Source: a virus | Reading direction: 5' to 3' (one strand) | Virus record (IMG/VR): IMGVR_UViG_3300044972_000204 | Span: 1 to 33,682 of that record | DNA length: 33,682 nucleotides | In this document: piece by piece, positions 2,703 through 21,604 of the stretch | Layout of the letters: the number at the start of each line of letters is the position of its first letter | Position numbering within the stretch: position 1 is the first letter of the stretch | Notes under the pieces: model-generated | The model's input: only the letters and a program-made list of their open reading frames with translations | Told to the model about the DNA's origin: nothing | The model's database searches: none | Program-made: the position numbers and the translations under genes

Positions 2703-3034
2703 GTTCTTTGCGCTCCATATAGCACGAATGTATTTGTGGAAGACATTGCTGAAGCAGATTCTGGCGTAATTCGCACTTGGTCGCCTTCTTCAAGCACAAC
2801 ATAAGCGCCACCATCAAATCTTACATACTGAGTAGCCGCAATCTGATAAGCATCAATTACAGTAATCTCAGCATTGGCACTAGAGTCGTACCACCAGACA
2901 CTTACAGTCTTATTGTTGCCAGTATGGTTGGAGATGAAGCAAAGATTCCATAGAGCATAGTAACCAGTAGGCACAGTATAGACAGTAGTCTTTGAGCCTG
3001 CGGTTAGATTATTACCTACGGATATTGGTCTCAC
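2699..3034 (-). CDS. Small beta-rich virion protein, function unknown
   Basis: A 111-residue protein with alternating hydrophobic, Thr- and Tyr-rich segments (TVYTVPTGYYALWNLCFISN, VRFDGGAYVVLEEGDQVRI) that reads as a compact beta sandwich. Such proteins, with VPxGxYA and GDxVxI motifs, recur in phage structural modules as head or tail decoration or stopper proteins. I cannot assign it further. Both ends are coupled: the start shares ATGA (3031-3034) with the upstream basic-protein gene and the stop shares ATGA (2699-2702) with the adaptor. Confidence 0.6.
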   Translation of the reverse strand: MRPISVGNNLTAGSKTTVYTVPTGYYALWNLCFISNHTGNNKTVSVWWYDSSANAEITVIDAYQIAATQYVRFDGGAYVVLEEGDQVRITPESASAMSSTNTFVLYGAQRT

Positions 3035-3324
3035 TTCTTATTCCTCTTAGAGATCGCTTTAGCCTTAGCTTTAGCGTCTTCCTTGGACGTTGCGCCCCAA
3101 GCTCTAAGAGAAAGTAAAAGTCGGGTAGGCTTTCCATCTTTCATCTCAGCGCCAGGCATATTGCCCATTCGTGCTAAAAAGGATGCCCTACGAGGGTTAT
3201 CTCCCGACTTGACTGGTGCTTTTAAATTACCACCTGTTTCTGCATTATACGATGCTCTTCCTTTGGCATTCAAGCCCCCAGAAGCAGATTTTCCTTCTTT
3301 TCTTTGCCAAGCAGGAGTCTTCAT
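3031..3324 (-). CDS. Small basic phage protein (DUF6321-like)
   Basis: A 97-residue, Lys/Arg-rich protein: MKTPAWQRKEGKSASGGLNA, then NLKAPVKSGDNPRRASFLARM (split across residues about 33-53), MPGAEMKDGKPTRLLLSLRAW and a lysine-rich tail (KAKAKAISKRNKK). I recall this arrangement as a small family present in many phages (DUF6321, from memory), function unknown. It is the last of four consecutive small basic genes joined by ATGA overlaps. A role bound to DNA or to the capsid interior is plausible from charge but unproven. Confidence 0.7.
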   Translation of the reverse strand: MKTPAWQRKEGKSASGGLNAKGRASYNAETGGNLKAPVKSGDNPRRASFLARMGNMPGAEMKDGKPTRLLLSLRAWGATSKEDAKAKAKAISKRNKK

Positions 3325-11852: not shown

Positions 11853-12482
11853 ATGAAATTCTCTATCAAACGTAAAGATATCCGCGCAATGCTTCACTTA
11901 GCGGCCAAAAAAGACATTCGCTATTATTTGCAAGGTGTTAACGTGGTGCGCGACAATAGAGGCACTTACATCGAAGCTACTGATGGTCACGTTTTAGGCC
12001 GTTTGTTCCTCAACAACACCACCTCTGACACTAAGCAAAATGTTGTTTTGCCTACTGAGGCACTTCAAAAACTTAAAGGCACTAAAAAAACCTCTGAGGA
12101 ATGGCTCAGTTTCTCTGTCGAAGGTTTAGCGGTGGAATGTATCGACAGCCAGTCAACCACCCGATTCTCAGCACATGACGCAAGGTTTCCTGATACTGAT
12201 CGGGTCATTCCTATGGTCATAAAGGATGAAGATATCAAACCCGCAACATTTAACCCTGATCTTCTGGTACGTTTTGTAGATGTATCGGAGGAAATATACG
12301 GAAAACGTCAAATTCCTATGGTTTTACAGCGTGGCTCTCAATCTGCCCTTGTCTCATTTCCTCAAATGGACGATCACTTCATTGGGGTTATCATGCCGAC
12401 AAAAGAATATGCACCCGCTAAAGTGCCAGAGTGGTGCTATCTGCCCTCAGTAAAACCAACTGAAACCCCTGAAACTATCTAA
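11853..12482 (+). CDS. DnaN-like sliding clamp lacking domain I
   Basis: A 209-residue protein that lines up with the second and third domains of bacterial DNA polymerase III beta. IRYYLQGVNV (residues about 23-32) and YIEATDGHVLGRL (about 40-52) match the beta-clamp RYYLNG and VATDGHRLA motifs. HDARFPDTDRVIP (about 108-120) matches the VDGRFPDYRRVLP region, and FIGVIMPTK near residue 180 matches the C-terminal YVVMPMRL. With only two domains it would need to be a trimer, as PCNA and T4 gp45 are, to close a ring. It is the largest early gene, led by AATAGGTGT and followed by a terminator. No phage polymerase is present, so it should work with host Pol III or other clamp-binding host proteins. 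Confidence 0.8.
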   Translation: MKFSIKRKDIRAMLHLAAKKDIRYYLQGVNVVRDNRGTYIEATDGHVLGRLFLNNTTSDTKQNVVLPTEALQKLKGTKKTSEEWLSFSVEGLAVECIDSQSTTRFSAHDARFPDTDRVIPMVIKDEDIKPATFNPDLLVRFVDVSEEIYGKRQIPMVLQRGSQSALVSFPQMDDHFIGVIMPTKEYAPAKVPEWCYLPSVKPTETPETI

Positions 12483-14964: not shown

Positions 14965-15393
14965 TTACCCTAAGTCTTCTTTCACCATTACTTCGACTGC
15001 GGGTGTTTCTGCATAAACCTTGGTCACATGGAGATTGACCACCTGTTTGTCATCAAGGTAAACAATGTCGTTCATCCCATCTAAAAAACACTTTGCTATG
15101 TTGTCCAGATCAGGCTTTTTAGTTGGTCTTAAGACTCCTGACAATGCGTCTTTACGCTTCTGTTTTGAATAGGAAGCGGGTATTCCAACTCTGATATAAA
15201 TTGCGACTGTCATAGGCGTGTCTAGAGGCTCTGAAGAACCCATTGCCGCCTTTGCCATCATCCTGATTTCGTCTTCATAGGTCTTTGTCTTTTGTGGGGT
15301 GTAGGTAGATGTAAATTTTCCTCTTCTAGCAAATCTTGGCCTGCCCTTGCCGACAGGCTCACCATAAACTGTGTACATAAGCATCATTGTCAT
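14965..15393 (-). CDS. rusA: RusA-family Holliday junction resolvase
   Basis: A 142-residue protein with the RusA core KKPDLDNIAKCFLDGMND (residues 92-109) followed by IVYLDDKQV. Asp95, Asp97 and Asp114 or 115 match the acidic catalytic set, and VGKGRPRFARRG near the start is typical of the family. It resolves four-way junctions made during phage recombination and removes branches before packaging. Several ATG codons open the gene; the one at 15393 is chosen because it forms ATGA with the upstream stop. Full length for the family. Confidence 0.9.
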   Translation of the reverse strand: MTMMLMYTVYGEPVGKGRPRFARRGKFTSTYTPQKTKTYEDEIRMMAKAAMGSSEPLDTPMTVAIYIRVGIPASYSKQKRKDALSGVLRPTKKPDLDNIAKCFLDGMNDIVYLDDKQVVNLHVTKVYAETPAVEVMVKEDLG

Positions 15394-19214: not shown

Positions 19215-19396
19215 TGAAATCCTTGCTTGAAACTTACTTAGAAGAATTCTCAGGGATTCACTACTGCCAATACTGTTTAACAGTAAAAACAAACCAGTCA
19301 TGCTGTTCCGATGACTTTATCGATTTCAAGTACTTTGGGCTTGAAACACAAAAACAAATCATTCAACAAGAGTTAGAGCAACATTTGAATGTATAA
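19214..19396 (+). CDS. Small cysteine-containing protein (60 aa)
   Basis: MKSLLETYLEEFSGIHYCQY then CLTVKTNQSCCSDDFIDFKY and a helical end. CxxC at 18-21 with CC at 30-31 could form a small metal site. No family recognised. The stop lies 28 bases before the HNH gene start. Confidence 0.55.
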   Translation: MKSLLETYLEEFSGIHYCQYCLTVKTNQSCCSDDFIDFKYFGLETQKQIIQQELEQHLNV

Positions 19397-19424
19397 TAGG
19401 TTGTCAGCAACCTATGAGGAAAAG

Positions 19425-19916
19425 ATGAACAGTTTGTTAACACATGATGATGTAATTTCTCTCCTTGACTACAACAGGAATACTGGACATTTTCAATGGA
19501 AGAAAAAACGTAGAGGCATCAAAACAGGCGTGAATCTTGGTACTGATAACGGCTTTGGATATTTGCGTATAACAGTTCTTGGTAAATCATTCTATGCACA
19601 TCGACTTGCTTGGCTTTATTGCTACAAAGTCTTTCCAAAAGGAGAGATCGACCATATCAATGGAAATAAGCAAGACAACAGGATTGAAAACTTAAGAGAT
19701 GTAACGCAAATATCTAATGCACAAAACAAGTTGTCACCACAATCAAGAAGCAAAAGTCAAATGCTTGGAGTGAGTTGGCACAAAAAAGCAAAGAAATGGC
19801 AAGCCCATATTTGCATCTACAAACAAAGAAAATATCTTGGTTTGTTTGAGAATATAGAAGATGCTGAACAGGCGTATTTAAATGAAAGAAAGGCGATAAC
19901 TTATGTCAGTCCATAG
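19425..19916 (+). CDS. HNH homing endonuclease with AP2 DNA-binding domain
   Basis: A 163-residue protein, MNSLLTHDDVISLLDYNRNT at the start. The HNH-3 nuclease core is FYAHRLAWLYCYKVFPKGEI and DHINGNKQDNRIENLRDV (residues about 60-100). The AP2-like C-terminus GVSWHKKAKKWQAHICIYKQ, RKYLGLFENIEDAEQAY binds DNA. The frame opens at 19389, but GAGGAAAAG before the ATG at 19425 fits better. It is a free-standing mobile gene placed just before ERF, whose start it overlaps by 14 bases. No intron or intein sequence is seen in neighbours. Confidence 0.9.
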   Translation: MNSLLTHDDVISLLDYNRNTGHFQWKKKRRGIKTGVNLGTDNGFGYLRITVLGKSFYAHRLAWLYCYKVFPKGEIDHINGNKQDNRIENLRDVTQISNAQNKLSPQSRSKSQMLGVSWHKKAKKWQAHICIYKQRKYLGLFENIEDAEQAYLNERKAITYVSP

Positions 19917-20517
19917 CAAGTTAATGAATGCTCGTATCCGATTGCAGAATACGCAGCTTAAGAAAACTGGTCACAATAAATTTGCTGGCTACTACTATTT
20001 TGAGCTTGGAGATTTCCTTCCTCAAGTGCAAGAAATTTTCCATCAAGTAGGACTATGTGGATATATATCTTTCGACACAACAATTGCAACATTAACGATT
20101 GTTGATTTCGAAGATAACTCACAAATAACAATCACTAGCCCAATGGTTGAAGCCAACTTAAAAGGGGCACATCCTATTCAGAATTTAGGGGCGGTGGAGA
20201 CATACACCAGGCGCTATCTTTGGGTGTCGGCAATGGAGATTGTTGAGCATGATGCTTTAGACTCTTCTGCTCCTCTCAAAGAAGAGAAAGTAGTTATCAG
20301 TCCTACTCAGGGGGCAACAGACAATATTCCTCAAGAGGAATTACAGTACTTGCAGGAGATGGCAGTCGAATTGATTGCCATGTGTGAGCAAGGTGATCCC
20401 AAGGCAGCTTGGGTTAAGTTGGAGTCAGAGAACTTAGACAGCGAACAGAAAGTTGCTCTTTGGACTTTGCTCCCAAGTAAAGTGCGTTCAGCGTTAAAGA
20501 AAGCGAAGGAAATCTAA
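19903..20517 (+). CDS. erf: ERF-family single-strand annealing protein
   Basis: A 204-residue protein. MSVHSKLMNARIRLQNTQLK, then KTGHNKFAGYYYFELGDFLP, matches the ERF start where K-x-x-x-N-x-[FH]-x-x-[FY]-x-Y is conserved. GAVETYTRRYLW (residues about 97-108) is the second ERF hallmark. It should anneal complementary single strands for phage recombination and end repair. The C-terminal third (AWVKLESENLDSEQKVALWT) is variable, as usual. The next gene starts right after its stop and appears to be a single-strand-binding protein, the common recombination pair. Confidence 0.88.
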   Translation: MSVHSKLMNARIRLQNTQLKKTGHNKFAGYYYFELGDFLPQVQEIFHQVGLCGYISFDTTIATLTIVDFEDNSQITITSPMVEANLKGAHPIQNLGAVETYTRRYLWVSAMEIVEHDALDSSAPLKEEKVVISPTQGATDNIPQEELQYLQEMAVELIAMCEQGDPKAAWVKLESENLDSEQKVALWTLLPSKVRSALKKAKEI

Positions 20518-20757
20518 ATGGAAAAGCGTGATAACTCAGGTGTCTTGTTCAAAAATGACAAGAAAGAAACAGGAAACCATCCTGATTACAAAGGCAACAT
20601 CACAGTAAATGGTCAGGACTTCTGGCTATCTGCTTGGATTAAAGAAGGTAAAGGTGGAAAGTTCATGGGTCTTGCATTGTCCCCAAAGGAACAACAAGCA
20701 AAGCCTTCTGAGCGTTCTAAAGCCACTAGTTTTGATGATGGCGATATGCCATTCTGA
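20518..20757 (+). CDS. SSB-like OB-fold protein with SSB-type C-terminal tip
   Basis: A 79-residue protein: [40 protein letters not shown], then [11 protein letters not shown] and the end DDGDMPF. The strand pattern (HPDYxGxIxVxGxxxWxxAW) suggests a compact OB fold. The acidic tip DDGDMPF resembles DDDIPF, the tip of bacterial SSB that recruits repair and replication enzymes. It follows ERF with no gap. Too short for a classic SSB (about 110 OB residues), so DNA binding is inferred. A regulator of ERF is an alternative. Confidence 0.65.
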
Positions 20758-21150: not shown

Positions 21151-21323
21151 TTGAATTACCTCCACATTCAAAGATCAGCTATCCATCTGTTCCTTTGAAA
21201 GACTTTAAATGGGAATCAGGATCGGACGTTCAGGCTCTTTGGAGAAAGCATGGATGGACTCCTCCTAGTGAGAAGATGACACCTCCTCCTCCTGAAAGAC
21301 AAGAGTTTAGGAGAGTCAAATGA
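21147..21323 (+). CDS. Small phage protein with W-R-K-H-G-W-T-P-P motif (58 aa)
   Basis: MIELPPHSKISYPSVPLKDF, then KWESGSDVQALWRKHGWTPP and a Pro-rich end. The D-V-x-x-x-W-R-[KR]-x-G-W-x-P-P motif is one I recall in many phage small proteins, often next to a winged-helix gene as here. Function unknown. The ATG at 21147 overlaps the previous stop as ATGA; an upstream in-frame codon at 21138 is less likely. Confidence 0.6.
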   Translation: MIELPPHSKISYPSVPLKDFKWESGSDVQALWRKHGWTPPSEKMTPPPPERQEFRRVK

Positions 21324-21604
21324 AGGTCACGATGTATACCAAATCTGGTTGCCCTAATTGCGTCATAGCAAAGAATCTAATCGACTCCTTAAACATTGAG
21401 TATGAAGAGGTAGATGTAATGGTTGGCGACAGATTAGCTATCTTGCTTGCGGCTCGTCCAGAAGCTCGTCAGATGCCACAGATATGGGTCAATGACCAAT
21501 ATGTAGGTGGTTTGGCAGGGTTACAGGCTGCTTTAAAACAAGTCTGTCCTCCCTGTCATGGAAGTTGTAACCAGGGCAGAAACTGTCCTGCGAGGAACAA
21601 ATGA
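21320..21604 (+). CDS. Glutaredoxin with Cys-rich C-terminal extension
   Basis: A 94-residue protein. MKVTMYTKSGCPNCVIAKNL gives the redox site C11-P-N-C14; MPQIWVND has the cis-proline (Pro53) and YVGG the glutathione-contacting glycines (63-64). A thioredoxin-fold reductase that could supply electrons to host ribonucleotide reductase is the usual role. After the normal end (about residue 75) comes CPPCHGSCNQGRNCPARNK, with four more cysteines in a CxxCxxxCxQGRxCP pattern seen as a separate small phage protein elsewhere, so this appears to be a fusion. It is coupled to both neighbours by ATGA. Confidence 0.88.
   Translation: MKVTMYTKSGCPNCVIAKNLIDSLNIEYEEVDVMVGDRLAILLAARPEARQMPQIWVNDQYVGGLAGLQAALKQVCPPCHGSCNQGRNCPARNK

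Follow-up and report, generated by a model that had tools for sequence, protein, structure and literature searches.

Is the small protein encoded directly behind a phage ERF annealing gene a minimal single-stranded DNA-binding protein (SSB), or does it carry an SSB-like tip for some other purpose? The question is raised by a 33,682-nt virus record (IMG/VR IMGVR_UViG_3300044972_000204, analysed over its full length and hereafter called the window). A sequence-only reading of this DNA had pointed to a 79-residue protein ending in DDGDMPF and had proposed either an undersized phage SSB or a decoy for host SSB partners. We followed up this proposal through profile searches, comparison of relatives and their neighbourhoods, and structure prediction. 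Loci of relatives are denoted below by L numbers.

The ERF and SSB-like genes form a compact module

The upstream gene was assigned to the ERF family of single-strand annealing proteins (SSAPs) by Pfam (37.3 bits against a cut-off of 25) and by the PHROG profile 'Erf-like ssDNA annealing protein' (3.4e-20). As the earlier reading had stated, the 79-residue protein follows ERF directly (Table 1). The ERF stop codon TAA occupies 20515-20517 and the SSB-like ATG comes next, with a gap of 0 nt. Since the stop abuts the ATG and GAAGGA lies closely upstream, the two genes are probably translated together.

Table 1. Features of the ERF/SSB-like module and its upstream neighbour in the window.
Feature	Position	Strand	Basis or remark
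HNH endonuclease gene, 14-nt overlap with ERF start	19389..19916	+	Profile matches
ERF-family single-strand annealing protein, 204 aa	19903..20517	+	PF04404 above cut-off; PHROG 155 Erf-like
Annealing head of ERF, residues 1-122	19903..20268	+	Sak (PF06378) head instead in relatives
ERF C-terminal domain, about residues 122-204	20266..20514	+	Stays with SSB-like gene under either head
GAAGGA (likely ribosome-binding site) plus ERF stop, ahead of SSB-like ATG	20505..20517	+	Sequence
SSB-like protein, 79 aa	20518..20757	+	PHROG 18154 (4e-15), PHROG 7364 (5e-10)
SSB-like core, residues 1-58, four predicted beta-strands	20518..20691	+	AlphaFold models
Variable basic linker, residues 59-71, predicted disordered	20692..20730	+	AlphaFold models and relatives
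Acidic tip FDDGDMPF, resembling bacterial SSB-Ct	20731..20754	+	Sequence, relatives

Elsewhere the window encodes a replication initiation O-like protein and a DNA methyltransferase. A profile search of the whole record found no PF00436 SSB. RusA-like Holliday junction resolvases are matched at two separate places in this one record (11853-12482 on the plus strand and 14965-15393 on the minus strand), and a glutaredoxin-like gene lies shortly downstream of the module (21320-21604). HNH endonuclease genes adjoin or split the SSAP/SSB-like junction in the window (19389-19916) and in L015, L030, L041, L042, L048, L050 and L079, where they resemble homing endonucleases aimed at the module.

The SSB-like protein belongs to a widespread phage family

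Both PHROG profiles that match the 79-residue protein carry the label 'single strand DNA binding protein' and fall within residues 4-61 (residues 4-60 for PHROG 18154). Searches of Pfam, NCBIfam and PDB sequences gave no above-chance match to the protein. With families listed at E <= 1, PF00436 matched neither the window protein nor any of its relatives (0/76), and the DUF669 phage SSB family (PF05037) did not match the window protein. When the family profile was compared with PDB sequences, E. coli SSB was aligned in the tail alone (E 0.14, not significant), and the other matches were at chance level.

The label itself calls for care. VpV262 ORF24 is annotated as 'similar to single strand DNA binding protein C-terminus'. 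As this early name rests on likeness to the SSB C-terminus, the SSB label adds little independent evidence; it may derive from the tip and be circular in part. The PHROG label is an annotation, and we found in the literature no functional test of the family and no ssDNA-binding measurement for any member. The family has been named ssDNA-binding by PHROGs already and is apparently uncharacterised in the searchable literature.

Relatives were found in 118 GenBank phage records and in 322 confirmed stretches from one IMG/VR scan, while a search of genome contigs returned a single relative, in a Burkholderiales MAG. Family members range from 68 to 151 aa around a core of about 57 residues, so the earlier statement that the body is smaller than known SSBs holds. 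The family is a real and widespread phage mini-SSB candidate. One 68-kb virus contig (IMGVR_UViG_3300043446_000617) carries two SSB-like genes (L002 and L005) about 30 kb apart; these may reflect two joined genomes or a mis-assembly.

The acidic tip is retained while the linker varies

The protein ends in SFDDGDMPF. Likeness of this tip to that of bacterial SSB had been noted in the sequence-only reading, which also named loss of the tip in relatives as evidence that would count against its proposal. An acidic tip ending in PF was found in 162 of 172 distinct full-length relatives, its pattern being an acidic stretch, one residue, Pro and Phe. Among other distinct ORF ends from the same loci, such a tip occurred in 3 of 2773, one of the three being a plasmid relative. 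The ten exceptions mostly come close to the pattern (EDDPF, TDSPF, DDVAF, or a tip with a few residues added after it), and one is truncated. Three distant 68-aa proteins (L219, L220 and L221) possess the core without linker or tip, and constitute natural tip-less controls. Distant members end in DFDDDIPF, as does E. coli SSB, and the tip is kept across linkers of about 5 to 83 residues.

Codon comparisons among close relatives gave a similar picture. The proportion of nonsynonymous differences was 0.09 in the core and 0.27-0.53 in the linker (depending on the alignment); it fell to 0 over the final two codons (PF), where synonymous sites are saturated. The synonymous proportion was 0.70-0.94 throughout the gene, with pS 0.70 against pN 0.09 for the core. 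Mean net charge is about +1 in the core, +1.5 in the linker and -3 in the last eight residues; judged from sequence, this is the layout of an SSB. Separately, a 153-aa phage protein (L212, 2641-3099) ends in AKPLDDEIPF but lacks a Pfam match and any similarity found to the core, and so presents an SSB-type tail on apparently another body.

The core is predicted to form a small beta-sheet

AlphaFold models built from a narrow (57 sequences) and a wide (76 sequences) alignment both consisted of four strands and a low-confidence tail. The predicted strands span residues 8-12, 24-30, 33-44 and 47-56, with no helix. Block pLDDT was 72-88 and pTM only 0.47-0.48. Foldseek searches of the PDB with the core models gave nothing below E 0.48; an OB-type protein, the Enc34 phage SSB, was listed at E 1.9, far from significant, although a fold's absence from such lists carries no weight against it. 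Matches in BFVD were phage proteins of the same kind, including one DUF736 entry.

Best Z scores from VIA-align were 3.6 and 3.5 for the two core models, and no match reached significance. AcrIIA22 (7jta) headed one list at Z 3.6, with several PUR-alpha and PC4 entries also present; PUR-alpha and PC4 entries appeared again for the other model, at Z up to 3.1 (overall PC4-like range, Z 2.1-3.6). Such entries made up 11 and 12 of 50 rows in the two lists. As their scores tie with those of unrelated rows, we treat this recurrence as a lead; the scores are too low to claim a PC4-like fold for the modelled core. AcrIIA22 has been described as a helix-less four-strand PC4-like sheet, with the phage T5 PC4-like SSB as its closest structural relative (PMC8545432).

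The nearest named sequence family is DUF736 (PF05284), matched weakly by 15 of 76 relatives (best E 0.0031); the window protein did not reach its Pfam cut-off. An hhalign comparison of the family with four DUF736 sequences gave, over 43 columns, a probability of 77% and a P value of 2e-5; the P values of five column shuffles were 0.04-0.68. The pattern PDY..G....AWxKxxKxGxxYxS is common to both families, and distant homology of the core to DUF736 is a good lead. Two Caballeronia plasmid proteins contain a tandem double core (L222, 2276-2770; L223, 2297-2773), the first copy being weak in one of them, and one of the two ends in LEDEDIPF. Relatives of L223 were found on conjugative plasmids of Pseudomonas, Cupriavidus and Stenotrophomonas. 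The tandem arrangement in the Caballeronia proteins suggests that the working unit consists of two cores.

Relatives adjoin recombination and replication genes

Upstream of the SSB-like gene, where Erf is not the neighbour, stand genes for Sak-like SSAPs, for exonucleases of the RecE-like or YqaJ type, for HNH endonucleases or for DNA polymerases. The gene stands behind, or one gene from, Erf or Sak in Microcystis phage Mae-JY35, Manatee Spring podoviruses and phage C72C1. A DNA polymerase gene and an adenylosuccinate synthetase-like gene of the PurZ type adjoin it in several phages of Acinetobacter, Salmonella, Pseudomonas and Burkholderia. A PF00436 SSB was missing in 48 of 49 virus records with the SSB-like gene, in a search to which control genomes responded, and several of these records may be fragments.

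The SSAP C-terminal domain stays with the SSB-like gene while annealing heads are exchanged

A new point is that the C-terminal ~80 residues of ERF make up a module of their own. In many close relatives, the upstream protein matches residues 124-204 of the window ERF alone, and its remainder is the Sak annealing domain PF06378. The 89 upstream ERF matches include some made via the C-domain under a Sak head, and this count overstates ERF. A comparison of the SSAP C-domain with the PDB gave helical chance-level matches at most.

To fetch loci independently of the SSB-like gene, the ERF C-domain was used by itself as the query. It returned 70 distinct C-domain proteins, 51 with ERF heads and 19 with Sak heads. 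The SSB-like gene came next in all 69 that had room downstream (50 ERF and 19 Sak heads), and it also lay directly behind the C-domain in the sole cultured or complete phage record that matched. Both heads were present in five of six C-domain clusters. Apparent SSAP/SSB-like fusions in L022 and L016 were ruled out, as an internal stop separates the genes.

Head-label changes numbered 27 on the C-domain tree and 32 on the SSB-like tree, figures that derive from a very short alignment and lack a shuffle comparison. Head exchange was judged instead by direct comparison of pairs. In L272/L303, L034/L048 and L238/L071, for example, C-domains identical over 66 residues and identical SSB-like cores occur under either head. 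At the DNA level, L034 and L029 share 92% identity upstream, cannot be aligned across the head (L034 2342-2785), reach 97% identity over the C-domain and SSB-like core (2786-3236) and diverge again beyond. For L272/L303, another 3 kb downstream of the module is conserved too. The SSAP head, ERF or Sak, is swapped as a cassette while C-domain and flanks are conserved in L034/L029, L272/L303 and L238/L071. The SSB-like gene is co-inherited with the SSAP C-domain while annealing heads are exchanged.

Proposed role and alternatives

The 79-residue protein is most likely a minimal phage SSB. We prefer this reading because of the PHROG label, the conserved tip, the recombination and replication neighbourhoods, and the absence of PF00436 from nearly all records with the gene. 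These points bear out the sequence-only reading in part; where it looked to an OB fold, structure prediction supplied a four-strand sheet and no significant match to any fold. A working mini-SSB with a partner-docking tip is, in our judgement, the best explanation of the data and a fairly probable one. The small beta-sheet core would hold ssDNA, probably as a dimer or larger oligomer, and the tip would tether partners: the annealing protein and, perhaps, proteins that bind host SSB.

A recruiter or decoy, the latter named in the earlier reading, would offer its tip to host SSB-binding proteins (such as PriA, RecO and exonuclease I) without general SSB action, either bringing host partners to phage DNA or drawing them off host SSB. 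This is compatible with the tip being the most strictly retained part of the protein, and with the putative nature of ssDNA binding by the core. It accords poorly with a core constrained like a working domain (pN 0.09 vs pS 0.70), with family members right beside the phages' own DNA polymerase genes, and with co-inheritance with the SSAP C-domain, which indicates a phage partner. A pure decoy is less likely than a working SSB, no finding favours it, and we consider it quite improbable. An accessory to the SSAP is likewise unlikely. Its core would bind the annealing protein or dsDNA while its tip contacted a host or phage helicase or exonuclease, the SSB name having come from the tail alone. 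The history of the VpV262 ORF24 label is in keeping with such a role, as are the core's want of sequence relation to PF00436 and its distant likeness to DUF736, a family of unknown function. Some members, however, adjoin polymerase genes with no SSAP alongside, and therefore an SSAP-only role cannot cover the family.

Co-inheritance, together with two precedents, leads us to propose that the tip may dock onto the SSAP C-domain, an idea we hold tentatively and place somewhat short of probable. The C-terminus of Red-beta binds E. coli SSB (PMC9870868), and the HK620 SSB stimulates its neighbour Sak4, with a 10-fold loss upon removal of the NDYPPF tip (PMC5928155). Linkage alone is a serious rival to docking: phage recombination may simply happen to fall within the SSAP gene, the tip docking host proteins to the exclusion of the SSAP. 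The adjacency of C-domain and SSB-like gene and the further 3 kb conserved downstream in L272/L303 are what linkage would produce. In L034/L029, by contrast, the conserved stretch stops inside the SSB-like gene, and the kept unit is therefore the C-domain plus the SSB-like core. The occurrence of both heads in most C-domain clusters and the unfailing company of the SSB-like gene wherever room allowed also speak against it. We regard linkage alone as possible, leaning towards doubtful.

If the mini-SSB reading is true, phages have equipped a second, smaller body with the bacterial SSB tip and set it within a module of interchangeable annealing heads. SSAP loading on SSB-coated ssDNA, a long-standing question, would become directly testable; tip, C-domain and head are separable because two different heads are found with one and the same combination of C-domain and mini-SSB. 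Outside E. coli, recombineering faces the practical issue of matching SSAP to SSB (PMC12262390), and matched pairs from such modules could be of use there. The reading would also provide a first functional hint for DUF736, which every ICE in one Mesorhizobium survey carried (PMC8627217).

Comparison with known systems

The family shares with bacterial SSB (PF00436; E. coli SSB) the order of core, variable linker and acidic (I/L/M/V)PF tip, but its core has about 57 aa and four predicted strands and is not matched by PF00436 in any of the 76 relatives. The HK620 SSB (DUF669) and Sak4 offer a similar arrangement, a phage SSB adjoining an SSAP and bearing a PF-ending tip needed for full SSAP stimulation. 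In contrast, DUF669 does not match the 79-aa protein, and ERF or a Rad52-type Sak takes the place of the RecA-like Sak4. Red-beta likewise has an SSAP C-terminal domain outside the annealing core that is thought to contact SSB; no sequence link to it was detected, and the SSB partner here would be phage-encoded, by the next gene.

For the core, DUF736 proteins of plasmids and ICEs share the sequence pattern described above (P 2e-5 over 43 columns), but the four compared are without the SSB tip and are longer than the common part. PC4-like folds (the phage T5 PC4-like SSB, AcrIIA22, PUR-alpha), whose curved sheets usually form dimers, resemble the models in having four strands. Z scores of at most 3.6 are too low for a relationship, and no sequence similarity was detected. 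AcrIIA22, like the predicted core, does without the usual helix.
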